A DNA stretch of 64,000 nucleotides from Advenella kashmirensis WT001. Lineage in GTDB: Bacteria; Pseudomonadota; Gammaproteobacteria; Burkholderiales; Burkholderiaceae_B. Where the stretch lies: assembly GCF_000219915.2 (NCBI RefSeq), contig NC_017964.1:4278001-4342000 (forward strand), written 5' to 3'. The notes beneath the pieces were generated by a model. It ran no database searches and was not told the DNA's origin. It was given only the letters and a program-made list of their open reading frames with translations. A program made the position numbers and the translations under genes. Position 1 is the stretch's first letter. Every line of letters starts with the position of its first letter. Below, piece after piece: positions 1,867 to 61,732 of the stretch.

Positions 1867-3072
1867 ATGAAATCAACAACATTAGTGCTTGCCGGGTGCT
1901 GCGCGCTGGCTGCAACCCCGCTGGCACATGCCGCAGCCGGTATTTCGGATAAGGAAATCCGCATCGGCTTTATTACCGATATGTCCGGCGTGTACGCCGA
2001 TACCGACGGCCCGGGCGGCACCGTGGCCATCCAGATGGCGATTGACGAGGTAGGCGGCGCCATTGATGGTAGCAAAATCACGCTTGTGACGGCCGATCAC
2101 CAGAACCGCGCCGATCTGGCGGCCTCAAAAGCCCGCGCATGGATCGACCAGAATAAAATTGACGTGATCATCGGCGGCACCAATTCAGCCACCACCCTGG
2201 CCATCGCCACCGTGGCCGCCAAAAAACAAATCCCGCTCATTTCCGTGGGGGCCGGCGCCACCGCCATCACTAACGAATACTGCACTCCCTACACCGTGCA
2301 TTACGCCTACAATACCCGCGCGACGGCCTATGGTGTAGCATCCGCCGTGCTCAAGCAGGGGGGCAAAGACTGGTTCTTTATTACCGCAGATTATGCGTTC
2401 GGCCATGCCCTGCAGAAAACCGCATCCGAAGTGGTCAACCAGTCGGGCGGCAAAGTCATGGGCAGCGTCAAAGTACCGCTGAGTACGGCCGACTTTTCGT
2501 CCTACATGCTGCAGGCCCAGTCCTCGGGCGCCAAAATTCTGGGCCTGGCCAATTCAGGCAATGACTTCATCTCGGCAGTCAAGGCAGCCAACGACTTTGG
2601 CGTGACCTCCAGCATGCGGCTGGCCGGCCTGCAGGTGTACATCAGTGACATTCATGCGCTGGGGCTGGAGCCAACCCAGGGCATGTACCGCACTGCCCCC
2701 TGGTACTGGGATCAGGACGAAGCCTCCCGCACCTGGTCGCAGGCTTTCATGAAAAAACACGGCGCCATGCCAACCTTCAACCAGGGCGGCGACTATTCGG
2801 CGGTCAAAACCTACCTGAAAGCGGTGGCTGCCAGCGGCACTGACGATGGCAAGACCATCATGAACTGGTTCAAATCAAATCCGATTGCCGATTTTTATAT
2901 CAAAAACGGCAAAGTGCGGCCTAACGGCCTGCTGGTGCACGATATGTTCCTGTACGAGGTAAAGAAACCTTCTGAATCCAAAGGTGAGTGGGATTACTTC
3001 AAAGTGTCTGCCACCATTCCGGGTGAGGAAGCCTACGGCCCCGAGTCCGAATCGGCTGCGTGCAAGCTGTAA
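1867..3072 (+). CDS. ABC transporter periplasmic substrate-binding protein (LivK-like, Peripla_BP_6)
   Basis: A 401-residue precursor with a Sec signal peptide: MKSTTLVLAGCCALAATPLA, then HAAAG, with likely cleavage near residue 25. The mature part begins with the family motif IRIGFITDMSG and continues with the long type I bilobed fold of the branched-chain amino acid/amide binding family. The ATG has a strong ribosome site (taggagacagg). No permease or ATPase genes are nearby, so the partner transporter must be elsewhere, or the protein delivers to a shared permease. It leads the rightward operon with the dehydrogenase-like and BKACE genes, which suggests that it captures the island's carboxylate or amine substrate. 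Confidence 0.88.
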   Translation: MKSTTLVLAGCCALAATPLAHAAAGISDKEIRIGFITDMSGVYADTDGPGGTVAIQMAIDEVGGAIDGSKITLVTADHQNRADLAASKARAWIDQNKIDVIIGGTNSATTLAIATVAAKKQIPLISVGAGATAITNEYCTPYTVHYAYNTRATAYGVASAVLKQGGKDWFFITADYAFGHALQKTASEVVNQSGGKVMGSVKVPLSTADFSSYMLQAQSSGAKILGLANSGNDFISAVKAANDFGVTSSMRLAGLQVYISDIHALGLEPTQGMYRTAPWYWDQDEASRTWSQAFMKKHGAMPTFNQGGDYSAVKTYLKAVAASGTDDGKTIMNWFKSNPIADFYIKNGKVRPNGLLVHDMFLYEVKKPSESKGEWDYFKVSATIPGEEAYGPESESAACKL

Positions 3073-3174
3073 ACACGCGCTTTCATACCATTACGGGGGC
3101 AATCCAGTATGGCCACGGTCGATCACCGACATGAGCCATACCCTGCCCCCACTTCTTGCGGAAACCCTGTCATC

Positions 3175-4141
3175 GTGAATGCCCCTATTGCTTCAGTCAG
3201 TATTATCGGCACCGGCCTGATCGGCCAGGCCTGGGCGGTGGTCTTTGCCCGCGCCGGTTGCGTCACCACGCTATGGGACGGCAATGCCCAGGCTGCCCGT
3301 CAGGCAGTCACGCTGATCGAGCAGCAAATGCATACGCTGGCGCAGTACGGCCTGATTAACGATGTACCCGGCGCCATGGCGTGCATCCGGGTCGCAGATA
3401 GCCTGGAAGCGGCGGTTGCCGATGCCAGCTATGTGCAGGAGAATCTGCCCGAAGTGCTGGACATTAAACTGGATATTTTTGCCCGGCTGGATGCCGCCGC
3501 CCCACCAGAGGCCATTCTGGCCAGTTCCACTTCGGGTATTCCAGCCTCGGCGTTTACCGAGGGGCTGGCCGGTCGCGCCCGCTGTCTGGTTGCCCATCCG
3601 GTCAACCGCCGTCCCTGATTCCTGTGGTGGAACTGTGCGGTGCCCCATGGACCAGCGAACAAACGGTCGAGCGCGCCCGTGCTCTCATGGATGCCGTAAA
3701 CCAAAAACCAGTCACTGTATTGCGGGAGATCGACGGTTTCATTCTGAACCGGCTGCAGGGCGCGCTGCTGCGCGAGGCCTTCCGGCTAGTGGAGCAGGGT
3801 TATGTCTCGGTGCAGGATCTGGACACCACGGTCAGCAACGGCCTGGGGCTACGCTGGTCGTTTATGGGGCCGTTCGAAACCATCGACCTGAACGCGCCAC
3901 AGGCATCGGCGACTATGCCCAGCGCTATGGGCCGCTGTATCAGGAACTGGCCAAAACCCAGGTCGATACCCGACCCTGGTCAGGCGAGCTGATAGACAGC
4001 GTCACAACGGCCCGCCGGGCCGACCTGCCGGAAACAGAACTGGCCGCACGCCGGGCCTGGCGCGATCAGCGTCTGATGGCGCTGGCGGCCCACAAGCAGC
4101 ATGCCCAAGACACCGACAGCAATAAGCAGGACCCCTGCTGA
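3175..4141 (+). CDS. 3-hydroxyacyl-CoA dehydrogenase / carnitine dehydrogenase-like enzyme (frame broken twice)
   Basis: A protein of about 320 residues with an N-terminal NAD-binding Rossmann motif (SIIGTGLIGQAWAVVFARAG) and the second-domain motif DGFILNRLQGALLREAF typical of 3-hydroxyacyl-CoA/L-gulonate/L-carnitine dehydrogenases. Reading starts in one frame, moves at about 3610 (the HPVN-PP turn lacks one C), and moves again at about 3900 (one G missing before GIGDYAQRYG). Each break is repaired by one added base, so a sequencing error is more likely than decay. I prefer the GTG at 3175 because the family begins just before the Rossmann strand; an in-frame ATG lies at 3109. Followed by BKACE, it probably makes the beta-keto acid that BKACE cleaves. 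Confidence 0.75.
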
Positions 4142-4243
4142 CCCGCTACTGATCCGGTACCGACCACCAAGGGCTTGCACCATAGCCCCGCACTGCGTCA
4201 GCATCGGAACCGCAACTTATTTTCTGAAACTGGATAACACGTT

Positions 4244-5185
4244 ATGAGCACAAGCAAAAAACCACACAAAGTTATTATTACCTGCGCTGTCACCGGTGCG
4301 ATTCACACGCCCAGCATGTCCGCACATCTGCCGGTCACTGCCGACCAGATTGCCGATGACGCGATTGCCGCCGCCCGTGCCGGCGCCGCCATCCTGCACC
4401 TGCACGCGCGCGACCCCAAAGACGGTCGTCCCACTCAGGACCCTGAATTTTTCAAGCCATTTCTGGCCCGCATCAAAGCAGAAACCGATGCCGTCATAAA
4501 CATCACCACCGGCGGCAGCCCCCACATGACGGTGGAAGAACGCATGCGCCCGGCCACCACCTTCAAGCCTGAGCTGGCCTCCCTGAATATGGGCTCCATG
4601 AACTTCGGCCTGTACACCATGCTGGATCGCTTCAAAGAGTTCAAGCACGAATGGGAGCGCGAGCACCTGGAAAAAAGCCGCGATCTGGTGTTCAAAAACA
4701 CCTTCAAGGATATTGAAACCATCCTGCGCCTGGGCAACGACAACGGTACGCGCTTTGAATTTGAATGCTATGACATCAGCCATTTGTATAACCTGGCCCA
4801 CTTCATGGATCGCGGCTTGGTCAAATCGCCCCCTTTCATTCAGTCCGTATTCGGCTTGCTGGGCGGCATTGGCCCGCATCCGGAAGATCTGATGCATATG
4901 CGCCGCACCGCGGACCGTCTGTTCGGGCAGGATTACCAATGGTCGATCCTGGGTGCGGGGCGTAACCAGATCCCGCTGGCCTCCATGGGGGCGAGCATGG
5001 GCTCCAATGTGCGGGTTGGCCTGGAAGATTCGCTCTGGATTGCACCGAAACGGCTGGCCGAGTCTAACGCCGATCAGGTCTCGCAGATACGCCAGGTGCT
5101 CGAGGGCCTGAATCTGCAGATTGCCAGCCCCGACGAAGCGCGCGAGATCCTGCAATTGAAGGGTGCGGCTAATGTCAATTTCTAA
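4244..5185 (+). CDS. BKACE family beta-keto acid cleavage enzyme (DUF849)
   Basis: A 313-residue TIM-barrel enzyme of the Kce/BKACE family. It condenses a beta-keto acid with acetyl-CoA to give acetoacetate and a new CoA thioester, using a bound zinc. The family signature ITCAVTGAIHTP is at the N-terminus, the zinc ligands HLHARD near residue 50, and a barrel strand ITTGGSPHMTVEER follows. Full length for the family and unbroken. It overlaps the next SDR gene by 14 bp and lies 102 bp behind the dehydrogenase-like gene. The chemistry is well known for the family; which keto acid is used cannot be read from the sequence. Confidence 0.9.
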   Translation: MSTSKKPHKVIITCAVTGAIHTPSMSAHLPVTADQIADDAIAAARAGAAILHLHARDPKDGRPTQDPEFFKPFLARIKAETDAVINITTGGSPHMTVEERMRPATTFKPELASLNMGSMNFGLYTMLDRFKEFKHEWEREHLEKSRDLVFKNTFKDIETILRLGNDNGTRFEFECYDISHLYNLAHFMDRGLVKSPPFIQSVFGLLGGIGPHPEDLMHMRRTADRLFGQDYQWSILGAGRNQIPLASMGASMGSNVRVGLEDSLWIAPKRLAESNADQVSQIRQVLEGLNLQIASPDEAREILQLKGAANVNF

Positions 5186-5951
5186 GGGCGCGGCGCGATT
5201 CTCTCTGGACGGGCAGCTTGCTTTGGTGACCGGCTCCAGCCGGGGTATCGGACTGGCCAGTGCGCGTGCGCTGGCCGAGCAGGGCGCCAGGGTCATCATC
5301 AATGGCAGATCGGCGCAGACAGTATCGCAGGCCGCAGACACCCTGCGCCAGGCAGGGTTGGAGATTATCCAAGCGCCTTTTGATGCGGCAGATATCCAGC
5401 AGTCGGTCGCCGCCGTTGACCGACTGATCCAGGAACACGGCCCCATCCAGATTTTCATGGCCAATGCCGCCATGCAGCATCGTGAAAGCCTGCTGACTTT
5501 TCCCCAGGAAAAGTTCGAAGAAGTGCTCTGGCTCAATCTGACCGCACAATGGGCACTGGGCCGCCATCTGGCCACCCATATGGTGCAGCAAAAATACGGA
5601 CGCATTATTGTGACCGGTTCGGTCACGGGCCTGCAGGGACGCAAGGATATTTCCGCTTACACTGTCGCCAAGGCCGGCCTGCATGCGCTGGCCCGGCAAT
5701 GGGCCGTGGAACTGAGCCCGCATCACATTACCGTGAATGCGGTCGCGCCCGGCTACATTGCCACCGAGTTCAATGATGCGTTGCAAAACGACAAGGACTT
5801 TAACCAATGGCTGTTTGACCGCGTGCCCCAGCAAAAATGGGGCAGCCCCAACGACATTGCCAGCGCCGTATGCTACCTGGCTTCGCGGGAAGCCTCGTTT
5901 GTCACAGGCCAGACGCTGGCCGTGGATGGCGGCTTTACCATCGCGTTGTAG
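5172..5951 (+). CDS. SDR family oxidoreductase
   Basis: A 259-residue classical SDR similar in layout to gluconate 5-dehydrogenases. It has TGSSRGIGLASA near residue 20, MANAAMQHRE in place of the usual NNAG, the catalytic YTVAKAG near 160, and the C-terminal TGQTLAVDGGFTI. The ATG at 5172 lies inside the end of the BKACE gene, implying translational coupling. It is the last gene of the rightward island. A role as a second dehydrogenase of the same pathway is inferred from the operon. Confidence 0.85.
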   Translation: MSISKGAARFSLDGQLALVTGSSRGIGLASARALAEQGARVIINGRSAQTVSQAADTLRQAGLEIIQAPFDAADIQQSVAAVDRLIQEHGPIQIFMANAAMQHRESLLTFPQEKFEEVLWLNLTAQWALGRHLATHMVQQKYGRIIVTGSVTGLQGRKDISAYTVAKAGLHALARQWAVELSPHHITVNAVAPGYIATEFNDALQNDKDFNQWLFDRVPQQKWGSPNDIASAVCYLASREASFVTGQTLAVDGGFTIAL

Positions 5952-5962
5952 ACACGTGGCGC

Positions 5963-6406
5963 TCAGCGGACGATATCCCCCCTGAGGGCCACGCCCGTCA
6001 CGAAGGCGCCGGCATGACACTCATAATTGACCGTGCTCGAATTCACGTTCTTTTTGTAATAACTGACGATATTGCTCACGCCTGTGCCGCCCAGCTCCCT
6101 GGCCCGCTGCTGCAGTTGCTTATAGGCAGACAAAAAAGCCCAGGCGCAGGCTTTTTCATCGCTTCCCTTGCCGACCCGGCTGGTTTTCTTGTTGGTAACG
6201 GCATCGGCCTGGATTACCTGCCCCGGCCCGCTGCGTCCGAATGTCATTTTGATGGACGGATCCACGATGTTCGCCGCTTCCGGGGCGGCCAGCGCCTGGG
6301 CGATCGGCAGGTCATAGCGCGTATCACGGGCATGCGCCTGCATACTCGTCACACTTGCCGCTGCCAGAAGGGCGGTCAGACATACGATGGAAATTTTACC
6401 TGGCAT
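5963..6406 (-). CDS. Small secreted protein of unknown function
   Basis: A 147-residue protein with a signal peptide (MPGKISIVCLTALLAAASVT, cleavage near HAR) and a conserved tail containing SYYKKN, YECHAGA and ALRGDIV. I have seen this family carried in databases under a mistaken excinuclease name; nothing here resembles an excinuclease. The start at 6406 is chosen for its good ribosome site (aggag, 6412-6416) and for placing the signal peptide at the N-terminus; a longer reading to 6694 has neither. It is convergent with the SDR gene and divergent from the aryl polyene cluster. Its function is not known to me. Confidence 0.7.
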   Translation of the reverse strand: MPGKISIVCLTALLAAASVTSMQAHARDTRYDLPIAQALAAPEAANIVDPSIKMTFGRSGPGQVIQADAVTNKKTSRVGKGSDEKACAWAFLSAYKQLQQRARELGGTGVSNIVSYYKKNVNSSTVNYECHAGAFVTGVALRGDIVR

Positions 6407-6743
6407 TGCATTTCTCCTGAGCAAAATATTAGAAACCACTACACTGCCGTCAGGCAGGATGTAACAACCCCTGGCCGCCCTGAAACGATCTGAATTCAAC
6501 TGCGACATATGCAGACAGCACAACGCCGCAAGCAGCCAAATGTGTACTATATTTCTGAATCCCCCGATAAGCTGGGGCCACTGTATATGAACCAGAAGGT
6601 CGAACGGCCGGGACAGGGTTGTCCGACCGCGGCCATACCGTGGGTTTACGTTTCCAAGCCAAAATATGTTAACTATTGTAACATCAAGAAACATATTATA
6701 ATAATTTTTCGTTCAGCCGATACTCTGAGACCACTAACTTCAC
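6407..6743. other. Intergenic promoter region of the aryl polyene cluster
   Basis: A 337-bp gap between divergent genes. The right third is AT-rich and holds the candidate promoter at 6676-6702. I see no gene, tRNA or convincing hairpin in the remainder. Confidence 0.5.
6676..6702 (+). promoter_or_regulatory. Candidate promoter of the aryl polyene operon
   Basis: ttgtaa (6676-6681) and tataat (6697-6702) are separated by 15 bp, about 40 bp before the first gene of the cluster. The -10 element is perfect, but the spacer is shorter than ideal. Confidence 0.3.
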
Positions 6744-7489
6744 ATGCTCGCCTTTGAATTGACCATTTCCGAACAGATCGCGCTTGCTCCGGGTTTGTCC
6801 ACTGCATCGCAGTGGATACGGTGGCTGCAGGCAGGCGATGCGCAGGAAAAAGAGCATAGCCGGGCACAGAACCCGCAAGAGCCGCCGGTACTTGATTTTT
6901 TGCCGGCCATGCAACGCCGCCGCTTAAGCGCGCTGTCCCGGCTGGTCTTTGCGGCAGCCTGGCCCATTCTGAAGCAACATCCGCAATGCCCTGTGGTATT
7001 TTCATCCCGCAATGGGGAAATCAACCGCAGTTTTCAGTTACTGATTGAACTGGCCAAAGGCAATGGCGTTTCCCCTACCTCGTTCGGCTTGTCGGTACAT
7101 AATGCCATTGCCGGCCAGCTGGCCATCCATCATGCAATTACGCCGAACAGTCGGCCATTTCAGCCAACAGCAACGGCCTGGAAAACGCCATGCTGGATGC
7201 CTGGCTGATGCTGCAGGATGGCTCCGAGCGGGCGCTGGTCCTCTACGCCAACGATCCGCTGGACGCCCAATACGATGTCGACATAGATCGGGGGCCGTTT
7301 GCACTGGCCTGTGCCCTGCTCGTACATAAGGGGACAGATTGGCGTCTATGCCTGGACACCAACAGCAGTGCCCCGCTAAACGAAGATGGTAGCGCAGGGG
7401 TGTGCGCACGACTGCTTGGCGGCCATACCCAATGGGCAACGCTTACGAACCAGCCGCCTGCCCGCTGGACATGGACACGCCAGACATGA
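6744..7489 (+). CDS. Beta-ketoacyl synthase-like chain-length-factor protein (Ketoacyl-synt_2), frame broken
   Basis: A protein of about 248 residues resembling the small ketoacyl-synthase-like family found first in aryl polyene clusters. The motif GLSVHNAIAGQLAI replaces the catalytic cysteine region of true ketosynthases, so it probably assists or measures chain length and does not condense. Frame changes at about 7152 (one T missing in aacagt-tcggcc); the second part carries NSNGLENAMLDAWLML. Its end overlaps the next gene by ATGA. It opens a run of 17 genes spaced by only a few bases, so it is the head of the operon. Confidence 0.75.
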
Positions 7490-9376: not shown

Positions 9377-11145
9377 ACGAGGCTACCGACGGCATCCTGT
9401 TGCCTTTCCCCCATGCCGATTCGCTGGTCGCAACGCGCCCGGCCATGCGCCGCTCCCACTTCCAGGCCATTGTCAGTCAATTGCAACGGCAGTTGCAGAC
9501 CCGCGGTTGCACGCATGCCGCCCTGTGGTTCGAGGACACCGCCCTGTTCAGTTGTGCCCTGCTTGGTTGCTGGGCCGCAGGCGTTCAGGTGTTGCTGGCG
9601 CCCGATCTACTGGACGATACCCGTGCCTGGGCACAGGCTGAGGCTACCTTGTGGATCAGCGATCAGGCGCTACCCGATGCGACTATGCCGGTATTGCGAC
9701 TGGACGCCCTGGCACCGGCCACCCCTGATACGGCCCCCGATGTGTTCCAGGAACATGCAGATGGGCTGTTTTTGCCACTGCCAGCCGATGCCTGCGCCTT
9801 TTTGCGTACCTCGGGCTCCAGCGGCGCCCCCCGAGTGATCCGCAAGCGCTTTGCCCAATTGCACGCCGAAGCGCTTACCCTGATTCGTGCCTGGTCGCTG
9901 CATGCGCTGCCGGCCACGCTGATCGCCAGCGTCAGCCACCAGCATATGTACGGCCTGACATTCCGGGTCATGGTGCCTTTGCATGCCGGCCTGGTGCTGG
10001 ACCGAATCCCATCGCGCTACCCCGAAACGCTGGCCGAGCAGACGCAGATGTACGAGCAATGCATCTGGATCACCAGCCCTGCCTTGTTGCAGCGACTGCC
10101 CGACAGCCTGCCCTGGTCCGCAATACTGCCGCGCCTGTCCCGCGTGGTGTCAGCCGGAGGCGTGCTGGCAGAGACAACCCGCAAGCGCTTGCTGCAGTGT
10201 CAATGGCCGCTGCATGAGATTTACGGCAGTACCGAAACCGGCGTGATTGCCACAAGACACGAGCAATCTGGCTGGACGCCATTGCCCGGTGTCCGGCTGC
10301 AAACAGATAGCGAAAACCGGCTTGCTGTTTGCTCACCATGGACCGACGGCACCGAGCAAACGGCCGATGTCATCAGTCGCAGCGACGAACACAGCTTCAC
10401 GCTGCTGGGCCGCGCCGACCGCATTCTGAAGCTGGAAGACAAGCGCATTTCCCTGAACCGTGTGGAGCAGGCCGCCCTGGCCCATCTCTATGTCAGCGAC
10501 ATTCATTGCGCCCCCAGTCCGCTGGCCGGCCGGCTATGCGCGATGGTCGAACTCTCGGCCGAGGGCATCGCGGCCTTTCGGCAGCACGGGCGGCGTTATG
10601 TGATTCAGTCAGTTTCCGCCCTGGTGCGCAAGGCGGTAGATCCTCTGGCCGTGCCACGCCACTGGCGGTTTCCGCTGGCCTTGCCGCGCAATGCGCAATC
10701 GAAGATCACCCGGCAGCAGGTCCATGATTGCTTTACACAGCCGGTACGCGGCCCCCTGTGGGAACGCAGTGCAGCCGACGCATCGGCCAAGCCATCAGAA
10801 AACCCATCGGAGCGCCGCTTACCAACAGCGCCAAACACCGAATGGAGCCTGAGCGCCCGCATTCCCATGGATCTGGTCTATTTCCAGGGACATTTTCCGT
10901 CGTTTCCGCTAGTTCCCGGTGTGGTGCAACTGGGCTGGGCACTGGAGCAGGCCCGCGCCCGCAAACTGTGCCGCGGCGAAACCCAGCGCATTGAGAATCT
11001 GAAATTTCAGCATTTTTTACGCCCCGCCGATCCCTGCACAATGACGTTAAAATGGGATAATGACAAGCGTAAACTTTATTTCACCGTGCGCACCGGTGCG
11101 GCCATGACCGCGTCGGGACGCATTGCATTTGCCGATTCTGCCTGA
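9373..11145 (+). CDS. AMP-dependent ligase fused to a 3-hydroxyacyl-ACP dehydratase
   Basis: A 590-residue two-domain enzyme. Residues 1 to about 450 form an adenylate-forming ligase with the P-loop-like FLRTSGSSGAPRVIRK and the adenine motif EIYGSTETG; this half should activate the aryl starter acid and load it on a carrier protein. Residues from about 490 form a hotdog dehydratase with QGHFPSFPLVPGVVQLGWAL, the FabA/FabZ-type active-site segment. In the E. coli aryl polyene system as I recall it, these are two proteins (ApeH-like and ApeI-like); here they are one uninterrupted reading frame. Start overlaps the preceding stop by ATGA. Confidence 0.85.
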   Translation: MNEATDGILLPFPHADSLVATRPAMRRSHFQAIVSQLQRQLQTRGCTHAALWFEDTALFSCALLGCWAAGVQVLLAPDLLDDTRAWAQAEATLWISDQALPDATMPVLRLDALAPATPDTAPDVFQEHADGLFLPLPADACAFLRTSGSSGAPRVIRKRFAQLHAEALTLIRAWSLHALPATLIASVSHQHMYGLTFRVMVPLHAGLVLDRIPSRYPETLAEQTQMYEQCIWITSPALLQRLPDSLPWSAILPRLSRVVSAGGVLAETTRKRLLQCQWPLHEIYGSTETGVIATRHEQSGWTPLPGVRLQTDSENRLAVCSPWTDGTEQTADVISRSDEHSFTLLGRADRILKLEDKRISLNRVEQAALAHLYVSDIHCAPSPLAGRLCAMVELSAEGIAAFRQHGRRYVIQSVSALVRKAVDPLAVPRHWRFPLALPRNAQSKITRQQVHDCFTQPVRGPLWERSAADASAKPSENPSERRLPTAPNTEWSLSARIPMDLVYFQGHFPSFPLVPGVVQLGWALEQARARKLCRGETQRIENLKFQHFLRPADPCTMTLKWDNDKRKLYFTVRTGAAMTASGRIAFADSA

Positions 11146-57611: not shown

Positions 57612-59017
57612 ATGTCTGCTCCTGCCAACGATCCTATTGCTGCTATTGCAACCGCGCCGGGGCGCGGCGGTATAGGCGTCATCCGTATTTCGGGACCCGA
57701 TCTGACCGCGCTGATATCGCAGTTGTTTGGCCGGGAACTGGCGGCGCGCCATGCCTATTATCTGCCATTTTGCGATAGCAAAGGCGAGCCTATTGATGAA
57801 GGCATCGTACTCTATTTTCGGGCGCCGCATTCATATACCGGCGAAGATGTGCTGGAATTGCAGGGCCACGGCGGCCCGGCAGTATTGAAAAGAATACTCG
57901 ATCGTTGTCTGCAAGTGGGCGCGCCATCGCGCATGCGCCACGCCGAGCCCGGTGAATTCACTCAGCGCGCCTTTCTGAATAACCGCCTGGATCTGGCGCA
58001 GGCCGAAGCCGTAGCTGACTTGATCGACGCTTCCTCGGAGGCAGCAGCACGTAGCGCCATGGCTTCGTTGAGTGGTTCCTTTTCCGCGCAGGTGAACAAT
58101 CTGGCGGATCAAATCATTCATTTGCGCATGTTAGTGGAGGCCACGCTGGACTTTCCTGAAGAAGAAATCGAATTTCTGGAAAAATACCAGGCGCGCGAAA
58201 CACTGGGTGGCCTGATTGGCGATATGGCAGAACTGGTGCGTCAGGCACGTCAGGGCATGATTCTTCGCGAAGGCTTGCACGTTGTGCTGGCCGGTCAGCC
58301 GAACGTAGGTAAATCCAGTCTGCTTAATGCATTGGCAGGCGATGATATTGCAATTGTCACTCCGATTGCCGGCACCACGCGTGATAAAGTCACGCAGCAG
58401 ATTCACATCGAAGGCGTGCCCATCCATATCGTGGATACGGCCGGCCTGCGAGACACGGACGACACCGTGGAAAGTATCGGCATCGCGCGCAGCTGGGCGG
58501 AAATTGCCAAGGCAAATGTGATTATTCACTTGCAGGATGCACGTACGCCAAACGACGAGCTGGATGCTGGTATTACACGCAGCTGCCGCAACGTACGCCG
58601 GTGCTGGAAGTATTCAACAAAATTGATCTGCTTGATGAGACCGCGCTCAAGGCGTTGATTGCGCGACCCGCGGCAAACGGCAATACAGCCAGCACACATG
58701 AGGTTTCGCGCATTCTGATCTCTGCCGTTCACGAAACCGGCCTGGATGTACTGCGCAGCAAACTGTTGCAGATTGCGGGCTGGAACCCGGGTGCCGAATC
58801 ACCGTGGCTTGCCCGCGAACGGCATCTGGAAGCATTGCAAAAAGCCGCACAACACCTGCTTAATGCCAAGGAACATGCTGCGCAAAACGATCGCGTGCTG
58901 GACCTTTTCGCCGAAGAGTTGCGACTTGCACATGAGTCGCTGTGGAGTATTACCGGCCAGTTTTCCAGCGATGATTTGCTGGGTGAAATATTTTCGAATT
59001 TCTGTATTGGGAAGTGA
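57612..59017 (+). CDS. mnmE: tRNA modification GTPase MnmE (TrmE), one frame break
   Basis: About 469 residues after repair. The N-terminal domain starts [20 protein letters not shown]. The G domain shows [16 protein letters not shown] (Walker A), [10 protein letters not shown] (switch I) and [10 protein letters not shown], with NKIDLLDE as the guanine motif. The protein ends in the hallmark FCIGK, whose Cys is catalytic. Near 58580 one base is missing between DELDAGIT and [11 protein letters not shown]. It works with MnmG on tRNA wobble uridines. No yidC, rnpA or rpmH is beside it. Confidence 0.95.
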
Positions 59018-59326
59018 TGAAGTGTTCCCAAGATGGGACGCTTCTGCAAGGTAGCAGGCGTACTGCCAGTAATGGGTGGCAAGGCCCAGGTGTTGCCGCC
59101 GAGCTCCGATCATGGGAAAGGTATCGCGGGCTCTGCGTCAGCACAGCTGAATTTGCCAAAGATGCTCAATAGGACGCTGATCAGACTTCTCCTGTTCTGG
59201 GATGTAGACGTTGGATCAGGTCGCCCGGGCACTGATTGAGCTTTACGATGTGACGCATGCCATACTAAACAGATTGTGCTGCTCAAGCGTCTGTATTGGT
59301 CGGCTTGAGCATACGGAGAAACGAAC
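59018..59326. other. Region between mnmE and the Kiwa operon
   Basis: A 309-bp stretch with no recognisable gene, tRNA or terminator. It must hold the promoter of the defence operon, but I cannot point to a convincing one. Confidence 0.4.
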
Positions 59327-59494
59327 TTGGAACACCATTTGACACGTTATCAAAACCCGTTTTTTGCTCGGTGGCTTACGGGGCAGGTTGAGCGTGACGT
59401 ATCGCGTCATTCACTGTTCGAAATGCTTGCTGCTCGGTGTGATTTGCGGGTTTTGGAAAAGATGTGGCCCAACGTGAAACGAGTGCTGCGATGA
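59327..59494 (+). CDS. Small ORF of 55 codons coupled to kwaA, function unknown
   Basis: A TTG start with the ribosome site cggag at good spacing opens a 55-residue reading frame (EHHLTRYQNPFFARWLTGQV... ending WPNVKRVLR). Its stop overlaps the kwaA ATG as ATGA, which is the coupling style of real operons. The sequence is basic and helical in character with no membrane segment, and I do not recognise a family. It may be an extra Kiwa component, a leader peptide that controls kwaA, or the tail of a lost gene. Confidence 0.5.
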   Translation: MEHHLTRYQNPFFARWLTGQVERDVSRHSLFEMLAARCDLRVLEKMWPNVKRVLR

Positions 59495-60078
59495 GTGATC
59501 CATCTCTGAGGCTACGCCCGCTGGTGTCGTTATTGTTGTTCCTGAGCGCATATTCACCTTTGTTGATTATCTTAGTCATCAAGGATATTGATCTTCACAG
59601 CCCAATATTTTTCCGATCTCCGGTCCTTAGCGGCATCTTCCTCTTGATAGCAGTGGGCAGTAGTGTGATTACACTCAGGGCCGTGAAGGAAATCGATGGA
59701 GGACTTCCGGTTGTCATTACCAAGGCGGCGAACAGGTCCGGTGATATGTTTGGGTATACGATTCCCTATATGTTGACGTTCATGCGTATCGACCTGGGAG
59801 ATTGGCAAACCGTGCTTAGCCTTGCCATTCTCCTGAGTATTTTGTTCATCATGGCTTATCGTACGCAGACTGTGTTTATTAATCCAATTCTTGCGATAGC
59901 CGGATACATGCTGATCGATTGCACATTTAAACGGGGCGAGAAAGAAACCCAGGCCATGGTGATCACGCGGGCGCCGATCAGCGCGGGGGACTCATGTCGA
60001 TTGGAGCGTCTTTCGCACTATCTTTACATCGCCGCACAACCAGAGCCCAAACAGTCGGGGGAACAGGATGAGCAGTAA
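59491..60078 (+). CDS. kwaA: Kiwa anti-phage defence protein KwaA, membrane component
   Basis: A 195-residue protein with four hydrophobic segments: LVSLLLFLSAYSPLLIILVI, PVLSGIFLLIAVGSSVITL, VLSLAILLSILFIMAYR and FINPILAIAGYMLI. Size, topology, the N-terminal FLSAYSPL segment and the following DUF4868 gene identify KwaA of the two-gene Kiwa system. KwaA acts in the inner membrane as the infection-sensing partner of KwaB. ATG at 59491 is used; an in-frame GTG at 59464 with ggaaaag before it is an alternative. It overlaps kwaB by 11 bp. Confidence 0.85.
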   Translation: MSDPSLRLRPLVSLLLFLSAYSPLLIILVIKDIDLHSPIFFRSPVLSGIFLLIAVGSSVITLRAVKEIDGGLPVVITKAANRSGDMFGYTIPYMLTFMRIDLGDWQTVLSLAILLSILFIMAYRTQTVFINPILAIAGYMLIDCTFKRGEKETQAMVITRAPISAGDSCRLERLSHYLYIAAQPEPKQSGEQDEQ

Positions 60079-61018
60079 TAAGGCCAAAAGACAACTAGCA
60101 GAGATAAAATCTTTCGACTTTAGCAAGTGGTCAGTAACCTTTTGGTTAGTCAAAAGAAAGATCGTTCAGAAGGAGGCAAGTTATGCAGTGCTTCGCGTTA
60201 ATATCGACGTGAAACTGCAGCAGCGTTTCCGAGGATATCTGAAGGTGCAATTGCAAGACAAGGAGTTCCATGTCTCGGCGTACGACTTCAACAATGCGGA
60301 TGGCGACGACGTGCTGTTCACTATAGCGACAGAAACTACCGACTTTGTGAAGGTCGCCGCGATGATTAACGATGACTTTAACAACCCACATGCCAAGAAC
60401 TACGAAGAACTGCTCAATTCCTGGGCCTACATCGTATTGTTCGAGAAAGACGGAAAGCGATTTTTCACTTGGCGGAAAATTAATGCTGACACGCAACCAA
60501 AGAAAGTGAAGTCAAAGAATGCGACGTTTTTTCAGGACCACAAACTGGTAGATCTCGAAGACAAGGAAGTATTCCTGATCGATCCGCAATACGATTTCTT
60601 TGTTTACGAAGGCATTACTTTCATTGCCAACAAAAGGCAATTTGAAAGCGCCATGAATTTTCGAGAAGGGATGAAAGCAAACGGCGCTGAGGTGCTGGCT
60701 GACTTCGAGAAACTAAATATCTTTGACAATGTGGAGATCATCAAGGAGTTCGTTGGTTCAAATCTGCACCATCTGAGAAAACTCTCATCCATCCGCAAAT
60801 CTGGGTACTACAAGCAACCCGACTATATGCAGAAGCTGATTGAGGTTAATAATACCGAAAAATGGGAGCTGCAGATCGTCAAGAATAAGATTATTGTTGA
60901 GAAGGAAACGGTCGAATTGCTGCTTAAACTACTGAATAATGACAGGTTGCGTTCTCCCATCAACCATGAGCTATTTGACTCTGCCGCAAAGGCTCCCGTG
61001 GCGCAGGGGGGCGAGTAA
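60068..61018 (+). CDS. kwaB: Kiwa anti-phage defence protein KwaB (DUF4868)
   Basis: A 316-residue soluble protein of the DUF4868 family, the effector of Kiwa. Stretches such as FWLVKRKIVQKEASYAVLRV, VFLIDPQYDFFVYEGITFIA and NKRQFESAMNFREGM lie in the order that I expect for the family, and the length matches known KwaB. The gene is visibly AT-richer than mnmE before it, consistent with acquisition by transfer. It overlaps kwaA by 11 bp. Together the pair is thought to detect infection at the membrane and block phage DNA functions. Confidence 0.88.
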   Translation: MSSNKAKRQLAEIKSFDFSKWSVTFWLVKRKIVQKEASYAVLRVNIDVKLQQRFRGYLKVQLQDKEFHVSAYDFNNADGDDVLFTIATETTDFVKVAAMINDDFNNPHAKNYEELLNSWAYIVLFEKDGKRFFTWRKINADTQPKKVKSKNATFFQDHKLVDLEDKEVFLIDPQYDFFVYEGITFIANKRQFESAMNFREGMKANGAEVLADFEKLNIFDNVEIIKEFVGSNLHHLRKLSSIRKSGYYKQPDYMQKLIEVNNTEKWELQIVKNKIIVEKETVELLLKLLNNDRLRSPINHELFDSAAKAPVAQGGE

Positions 61019-61105
61019 GGACGGCGCCGGAATCACTTTGCAGCATACCGCTAGTGTCCGGCATCCACAGCGCACCATCATCATAAAATTCAATATGAAG
61101 GTCTG

Positions 61106-61732
61106 CTACAGCGCGGACATAAACACATTCTCCGTCACACGATTTACCGCAGCCAGCCTGCCGGCCTTCACCGTATCACCATCCAGCGCCATTCCTTGAG
61201 CCGAAAAAAAGCGCAGATCATGTAATCCAATCGTTGCCAGAATGGCTTTCAGATAAGGCGTCAGAAAATCGGGTTGGCGACTGTGTTCGCTGCCGAAAAA
61301 ACCACCGGATGCAATCGCGATATAAACGGGTTTGCTGTCCAGCGTACCCACTTTGCCTGCCGGCGTGATATTGAAACTGCGATTGACACGCACGACAAGA
61401 TCTATCCAGGTCTTGAGCGAGGCGGGTACGGTGAAATTGTGCATTGGCGTGCCAATGACAACCATGTCTGCTTCTTCAAGTTCGCATATCAGCCTTTCTG
61501 ATTGCTCCAGCGATCCTTCATACGACAGCGTATCAGCGTAGTTGCGGGCGGCATTGGCCAATGCATTGGCATAGTCTGCATCAATGGCAGAGGAGGCGTG
61601 CAAGCGCCAGTCGCGCCTGACGATACTACTTATTGAGTGTTGGCTGCAGAGCCGATCCACAATCGCCTGGGACAGTCGGGTGCTTTCCGATTCTTCACCA
61701 CGTGGACTGAATGTCAAATGCAATAATTTCAT
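61106..61732 (-). CDS. FMN-dependent NADH-azoreductase (AzoR family)
   Basis: A 208-residue flavodoxin-fold enzyme. FSPRGEESESTRLSQAIVDR at the N-terminus takes the phosphate-loop position, VVIGTPMHNFTVPASLKTWI binds the flavin, and IASGGFFG follows. The pattern PMHNFTVPASLK is typical of AzoR. It reduces quinones and azo compounds. It is convergent with kwaB, 87 bp apart, and marks the right edge of the defence insert. Confidence 0.88.
   Translation of the reverse strand: MKLLHLTFSPRGEESESTRLSQAIVDRLCSQHSISSIVRRDWRLHASSAIDADYANALANAARNYADTLSYEGSLEQSERLICELEEADMVVIGTPMHNFTVPASLKTWIDLVVRVNRSFNITPAGKVGTLDSKPVYIAIASGGFFGSEHSRQPDFLTPYLKAILATIGLHDLRFFSAQGMALDGDTVKAGRLAAVNRVTENVFMSAL

Follow-up and report, generated by a model that had tools for sequence, protein, structure and literature searches.

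Kiwa is described in PMC12904381 as a lattice of KwaA tetramers, seated in the inner membrane, and KwaB dimers, which gathers at phage injection sites; KwaB is reported there to bind DNA and to stop replication and late transcription without cutting. Genomic islands of the SGI1 family are described as integrating at the 3′ end of trmE/mnmE. According to PMC9035990, some SGI1-related elements carry restriction genes. In Pseudomonas aeruginosa, cDHS1 and cDHS2 are presented as fixed chromosomal defence hotspots holding exchangeable systems (PMC10250203), and DarTG2 is described as embedded in a type I R-M system (PMC12255303). Kiwa, island integration at the trmE/mnmE end, defence hotspots and the nesting of a defence module in a restriction operon are already known. 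No report of an mnmE defence hotspot, or of Kiwa within an SNF2/type III operon, was found among the matches listed, which came mainly from open-access literature. The useful part of the present locus is its setting: what appears to be a decaying defence island, caught with one module kept under purifying selection.

The window, i.e., the whole 64,000-nucleotide stretch of Advenella kashmirensis WT001 that was analyzed, was the subject of an earlier note, which had proposed a Kiwa pair at 59327..61018 as a small acquired defence insert between mnmE and an azoreductase gene. Both neighbours were confirmed, mnmE lying in two frames in the assembly. The features of the locus, in window coordinates, are the following.

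57612..59017, + strand: mnmE, left flank; two overlapping frames in the assembly (57612-58658 and 58601-59017)
59000..59017, + strand: last 18 bp of mnmE, the site beside which related islands begin; single copy in the window
59046..59306 (limits approximate), + strand: what is left of a Mrr_cat/PDC-S02 restriction endonuclease gene: fragments covering residues about 214-241 and 280-332, interrupted by stops and changes of frame
59327..59493, + strand: 55-codon open frame, SNF2 helicase remnant; the gene start joined to its last codons
59491-60078, + strand: kwaA, membrane protein of Kiwa; 195 aa from ATG
60068-61018, + strand: kwaB, DUF4868 protein of Kiwa; 316 aa
61019..61180, no strand: right junction; no convincing match to A. 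vinelandii DNA after KwaB
61106..61732, − strand: azoR-like gene, right flank; from the ORF list and comparison with relatives

The claimed Kiwa pair was borne out by the profile searches that the earlier note had suggested. KwaA matched the PADLOC KwaA model PDLC00215 at 1.3e-57 and KwaB matched the KwaB model PDLC00235 at 1.9e-144; in addition, KwaB scored 163.1 bits against Pfam PF16162 (DUF4868/KwaB; cut-off 26.3, E = 9.7e-48). The ORF coordinates agreed with the claimed 11-bp overlap of kwaA and kwaB and with the absence of frame breaks in either gene. An alternative kwaA start, a GTG at 59464, lies upstream and gives 204 aa. The start at 59327 that had been assigned to the pair did not hold, being out of the KwaA frame and corresponding to the TTG of the separate 55-codon frame. 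Used as a single sequence, KwaA found the solved KwaA (PDB 9o0i chain G, 1.4e-05). The solved KwaB (PDB 9o0i chain H) was found at 1.7e-05 with a profile built from 15 clade KwaB members; with the single KwaB sequence as query, no match to the solved KwaB was obtained in the PDB. A hydropathy scan called four hydrophobic segments in the KwaA proteins of Azotobacter vinelandii and of genome G465; in the window protein the second segment was called as two overlapping ones, and with this reporting of the second segment the claim of a four-helix membrane protein stood. The features by which Kiwa is recognized were thus all found: a KwaA homologue with hydrophobic segments, a DUF4868 KwaB homologue, and kwaA directly before kwaB. 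Both proteins scored below the NCBI equivalog cut-offs (NF041622, NF041623 pair), KwaA with 52.2 of 100 bits and KwaB with 42.4 of 200 bits, which points to a divergent Kiwa clade, related to the narrower NCBI equivalog class yet outside it. KwaB residues 284-298 (window 60917-60961) read LLLKLLNNDRLRSPI, a C-terminal block that was invariant in 15/15 aligned clade KwaB proteins and of which the solved KwaB has a looser counterpart.

The interval of 473 bp from the mnmE stop (59017) to KwaA contains fragments of two genes whose complete copies lie in A. vinelandii CA (L012), the best of eight loci in a genome-contig scan. The intact endonuclease copy matches Mrr_cat PF04471 and PADLOC PDC-S02, and its relic in the window was detected by tblastn at 6e-10, with matches in more than one frame. 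Alignment of the endonuclease relic plus helicase start with L012 DNA gave a score of 233.5, the top of 200 shuffles being 83.5. The intact L012 helicase matches PADLOC DrmD at 2.9e-197. As a protein alone, the helicase start in the window gave a weak tblastn match (E = 0.063), and the DNA alignments carry the identification; the missing middle of the helicase amounts to about 2.7-2.8 kb. The 55-codon frame keeps a ribosome-site-like GGAGA and the TTG, as in L012 and in the island of G526 (L132), and its stop overlaps the KwaA start (ATGA). That this in-frame remnant may act as a translational-coupling leader for kwaA is put forward as no more than a suggestion, since open frames of 55 codons are not rare by chance. 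A simple scan of the + strand from 59000 to 61300 gave no promoter-like site, its single hit being under the chance level. At E ≤ 1e-8, no SNF2 relative was found in the window's genome or in G465, and Kiwa, if working there, therefore works without its carrier. Likewise, Mod had no match at 1e-100 in the window's genome.

In A. vinelandii, mnmE is followed on its 3′ side by a frame-shifted integrase, then by HTH, endonuclease, SNF2 helicase, KwaA, KwaB, a protein of 665 aa, type III Mod (match at 3e-225), RhuM and type III Res (1.5e-204). The 665-aa protein was found in two operons (L012 9016-11013 and L019 14646-16643; 69% identical), inside the slot in the former and after Res on the opposite strand in the latter. 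It had no match in Pfam (E 0.01) or PADLOC (E 0.001); we regard it as a candidate defence gene that, in our own reading of its sequence, may be HATPase-like.

The island of G526 is closely related to that of L012: identity is 96% for the endonuclease and 97% for both helicase and Res, and the integrase, present as two pieces, reaches 84% and 96%. Between helicase and Mod, the G526 island has a DSR2-type SIR2 protein of 1189 aa (PADLOC 1.1e-143) in place of Kiwa. The DNA of the two islands is 93% identical from 2173 to 7415, ending 12 bp before the last base of the helicase ORF, and identity resumes at 11026, which is the ATG of Mod. Further to the right it is patchy within Mod and RhuM (pieces of 82% and 89%) and reaches 95% in Res. 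These boundaries at the helicase end and the Mod ATG, together with DSR2 standing for Kiwa, argue that Kiwa sat in an exchangeable slot, and the window pair would thus once have stood in this slot, within an mnmE-site island that carried a helicase/type III restriction operon. Codon-level boundaries refer to this one pair (L012, L132), which was compared base by base.

A Mod protein search of 369 genomes of the class gave 25 matches at 1e-100, in 22 genomes; KwaB lay directly upstream of Mod in the 1.5-kb flanks of one of them (G338). Longer stretches were taken for 18/25 matches (18 genomes), and SNF2 was located upstream of Mod in 10/18, while five of the other eight stretches end at contig ends. 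The slot contents of these ten are given below, followed in the last four lines by those of the Kiwa-bearing loci.

L147 and L149: IetA-IetS (plus further genes)
L152: HEC-01A/B
L145: PDC-S06 ATPase
L144 and L158: other AAA ATPases
L153: AIPR and an AAA ATPase
L154: two Schlafen-AlbA_2 proteins
L151: a 359-aa protein without a match
L157: empty
L016, L017 and L019: Kiwa alone
L013: Kiwa with ImmA-like and DUF4411 genes
L015: Kiwa with a KilA-N gene
L012: Kiwa with the 665-aa protein

In the class sample, most of the carriers found thus contain something else than Kiwa. A broader proposal, to which we give an even chance, is that the SNF2/type III Mod-Res operon would serve as a carrier in which entire defence systems (Kiwa, DSR2, IetAS, HEC-01, others or none) are exchanged at a single fixed helicase-methylase slot and which rides mnmE-site islands between betaproteobacteria and Azotobacter, that the cassette could outlive its carrier, and that the 55-codon remnant in the window would be the translational leader of kwaA.

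The Kiwa clade was defined as the 12 loci with a KwaB of at least 52% identity (the window, L012-L019, L044, L045 and L046). SNF2 lies upstream in 6/12 and is present as a relic in two (the window and L046); Mod lies downstream in 9/12 (complete, incomplete or truncated at a contig end); and Kiwa is without either open neighbour in three (the window, L018 and L045). Among the 11 related clade loci, kwaA stands directly before kwaB in ten, and the 11th (G590) has a kwaA fragment only. In that genome (L046 9081-10265) clade Kiwa is decaying in the reverse manner, KwaB having a stop and KwaA being a C-terminal piece; the helicase start remains, and Mod and RhuM are still there. When mnmE was sought in all clade loci except L016 and L017, which are on short contigs, it adjoined Kiwa in the window, in A. 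vinelandii and in G465, a second lone clade Kiwa, located ~170 bp downstream of mnmE. In seven Kiwa loci from other clades, neither mnmE nor the SNF2/type III operon was present in the stretch taken. At E ≤ 1e-10, KwaB was found in 5/268 family genomes, the window's own included. No match to clade Kiwa was obtained in protein searches of plasmids (E ≤ 1e-20) and phages, in a DNA-level search of E. coli genomes, or in viral contigs; counter to the E. coli result stands a 76% identical protein (P0011) that a source labels Escherichia coli.

A search of nine further genomes of the genus found KwaB in none. The mnmE gene lies beside azoR in five genus relatives. Their mnmE-azoR interval, which the earlier note had proposed to compare to see whether it is empty, is short and free of marker hits in three (stop-to-stop distances of 131 bp in G003, 75 bp in G004 and 489 bp in G007), and holds other or decayed defence DNA in two: 1555 bp with a RhuM relic in G006, and 12956 bp with a full island in G008. 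The latter island opens with the same HTH gene (95%), and its cargo includes a type I specificity subunit, a nuclease of the DUF1016/YhcG kind and a reverse transcriptase of the UG5-nitrilase type. This last defence gene, in the mnmE-azoR interval of a close relative, lies at L035 10645-13686. An exact 13-bp direct repeat, TTGGGAAGTGAGG, flanks the G008 island at the mnmE site; in a looser control the 20 surrounding bases match at 15 of 20, a value reached by 2/500 shuffles. A flanking repeat was demonstrated in G008 only. Genome-wide searches of seven genomes, A. vinelandii and the window's included, gave no second 18-bp mnmE end beside an island at ≤2 mismatches.

Beyond the genus, HTH, integrase or endonuclease markers were found 3′ of mnmE in 4/19 further family genomes (G568, G442, G494 and G486), the 19 being a hand-chosen, non-random set. 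The island HTH gene was detected in 35/268 family genomes (E ≤ 1e-15). It is represented by 18 copies of at least 86% identity (one partial), 12 of which lie within 3 kb downstream of mnmE, nine as judged by tblastn in the locus and three (G480, G490 and G447) by coordinates. Five copies (G473, G463, G450, G488 and G462) are far from mnmE or on another contig, and for the remaining copy (G472) the place of mnmE is not listed. At the mnmE site, the cargo observed includes IetS (G447), QatA (G002), HEC-01 (G442) and a type I methyltransferase (G490). The HTH protein matches Pfam HVO_A0114; RptR was considered for it and dropped, as the term HVO does not occur in the RptR paper.

Host and gene similarities to the window are discordant. 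For A. vinelandii, MnmE is 52-58% and KwaB 86% identical to the window protein; for G465, the values are 72-77% and 70%. The genes have thus had a history other than that of their hosts, which is what transfer would produce, and horizontal acquisition of Kiwa at the window locus is supported. A protein labelled Pseudomonas aeruginosa by a source is 87% identical to the window KwaB. Compared with the A. vinelandii island integrase, the mnmE-adjoining integrase of G486 is 94-96% identical, the G490 integrase 95% and the G447 integrase 86%, and the two pieces in G526 are 84% and 96% identical, while MnmE of Azotobacter and G465 is 57% identical; these data are consistent with one island type that would have spread across distant hosts. 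Integrases lying beside mnmE and 84-96% identical (L012 1783-3001; L143 404-1642; L134; L135; L132) are shared by Azotobacter and several genera in the family to which the window belongs.

At the left of the window locus, the C-terminal piece of MnmE is 95-99% identical to 476-aa single frames in five same-genus genomes, and the split of the gene is either a sequencing error or a real break. A second copy of the 18-bp mnmE end was not found in the window within three mismatches, and the best right-end attachment-site match in the window was 10 of 20. No later island genes were seen 3′ of KwaB in the window. Homology to relatives resumes at ~61180, inside azoR. The last ~25 residues of AzoR (window 61106-61180) are unlike those of five relatives, which differ mutually as well, and the right edge of the island event may fall inside azoR. 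The 7.5-kb stretch around the locus (L036) contains no integrase, and the island HTH gene had no match in the window's genome at 1e-15. Of the features of an mnmE-site island, the window thus shows the position directly 3′ of mnmE and lacks integrase, HTH gene and flanking repeat. With integrase, HTH and a second site copy absent, the locus appears to be derived from the mnmE-site defence island type rather than to be a present member of it. Of the SNF2-slot-type III R-M operon, there is a helicase relic on the left and nothing on the right. Only Kiwa is still open, probably as the last intact piece of a mostly deleted island.

The lower GC content that had been noted by eye was partly upheld. 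GC is 49% in KwaA and 44% in KwaB, against 55% for the window, the deficit being mostly at codon positions 1 and 2; GC3 is 0.585 and 0.573, respectively, with a mean of 0.634 (sd 0.068) over the 38 other window ORFs of ≥200 aa. In the codon-usage comparison that had also been suggested, both genes are near the low end of the range, 4/38 ORFs scoring under KwaA and 1/38 under KwaB. Low GC as proof of recent arrival is weakened by the GC3 values.

We consider it very probable that a composite defence island brought this Kiwa pair, of the PDLC00215/PDLC00235 clade, to the 3′ site of mnmE and that the rest was deleted or decayed while kwaAB were kept. The composite island would have comprised integrase, HTH gene, PDC-S02 endonuclease, SNF2 helicase, a Kiwa-holding slot and type III Mod-Res, and would have inserted 3′ of mnmE, as its relatives indicate, the window itself having no integrase and no second attachment copy. 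The remaining island genes would then have been lost or have decayed, this order of events being our reconstruction. That Kiwa was instead acquired alone, as a small insert next to unrelated older island debris, would accord with the lone Kiwa without a relic beside mnmE in G465 and with another away from mnmE in Caldimonas caldifontis (L018). The relics in the window, however, share order and orientation with A. vinelandii, and DNA homology is unbroken from the last helicase codons into kwaA (window 59446-61002 against L012 7379-8935, 81%), which largely refutes an insert of this kind and leaves it improbable. Of the earlier description as a small acquired defence insert, acquisition is upheld by the absence of KwaB from the nine genus genomes and the 86% identity to A. 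vinelandii; the self-contained nature is not, as the pair adjoins endonuclease and helicase fragments of a larger island.

Another alternative is that kwaAB are a non-functional relic, simply the last part not yet decayed: every other island gene is gone or broken in the window, and in G590, of the same clade, most of kwaA is lost and kwaB has a stop. Against this, both frames are open, and comparison with A. vinelandii gave dN 0.073, dS 1.02 and dN/dS 0.072 for KwaA and dN 0.074, dS 1.20 and dN/dS 0.062 for KwaB, values that indicate purifying selection on both genes but cover the whole path to A. vinelandii, so that a very recent loss of function is compatible with them. DNA identity to A. 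vinelandii is 69% over 249 aligned positions in the adjoining relic and 81% over 1557 in kwaAB, and together with the low dN/dS this indicates that kwaAB were constrained while the relic drifted. A database cluster representative 98% identical to the window KwaB is also full length. We therefore rate loss of function as unlikely, if somewhat less so than arrival as a lone insert. Synonymous sites of kwaAB are ~40-44% identical (pS 0.56-0.60) and the relic is far more similar, which suggests that the deletion may have happened after the A. vinelandii lineage had split off. A membrane/DNA-binding pair repurposed, after loss of the restriction genes, for a function outside defence might be read from the scores below the equivalog cut-offs, yet the patchy distribution among family genomes and the location in a defence slot point to defence, and this reading we consider highly improbable. 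For the retained kwaAB pair, the mechanism is likely that of published Kiwa: by homology, KwaA in the inner membrane would sense the phage at its injection site and hold KwaB dimers there, and KwaB would bind the incoming DNA and block replication and late transcription without cutting. As both proteins score under the equivalog cut-offs, the mechanism known in detail from E. coli Kiwa cannot be securely carried over to this pair; current expression and activity of kwaAB are inferred.

The relatives show a slot in a restriction operon where complete defence systems appear to replace each other. The locus raises the questions of whether carrier and slot cooperate and why the slot system is the part kept, and it illustrates how defence systems may travel, swap places and survive the loss of their carriers. 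In the window's bacterial family, the mnmE 3′ end is a place to seek new defence systems.

Compared with Kiwa of known structure (9mrg, 9mrx, 9o0i), the window pair is alike in gene order, overlap, four-segment membrane protein and KwaB/DUF4868 protein, and has a detectable sequence relation to both solved proteins. It differs in that its clade falls below the NCBI equivalog cut-offs, keeps the block LLLKLLNNDRLRSPI invariant in 15 KwaB members, and is often embedded in an SNF2/type III restriction operon. The L012 island shares with the window the site, Kiwa (86-88%), and the endonuclease and helicase, which are relics in the window; its operon is open except for the frame-shifted integrase, whereas the window has only Kiwa open. 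The comparison with the SGI1 family covers the attachment gene end, which is shared; the islands found here carry varied defence cargo. With cDHS1/cDHS2 and the nested DarTG2 they have in common a fixed place with exchangeable systems and a defence module inside a restriction operon. The P. aeruginosa hotspots are excluded as the same site, being placed at a proline tRNA or ssrA, whereas the islands described here lie at mnmE; and unlike DarTG2 within its type I system, the nested modules here (Kiwa, DSR2, IetAS or others) occupy an SNF2/type III operon.
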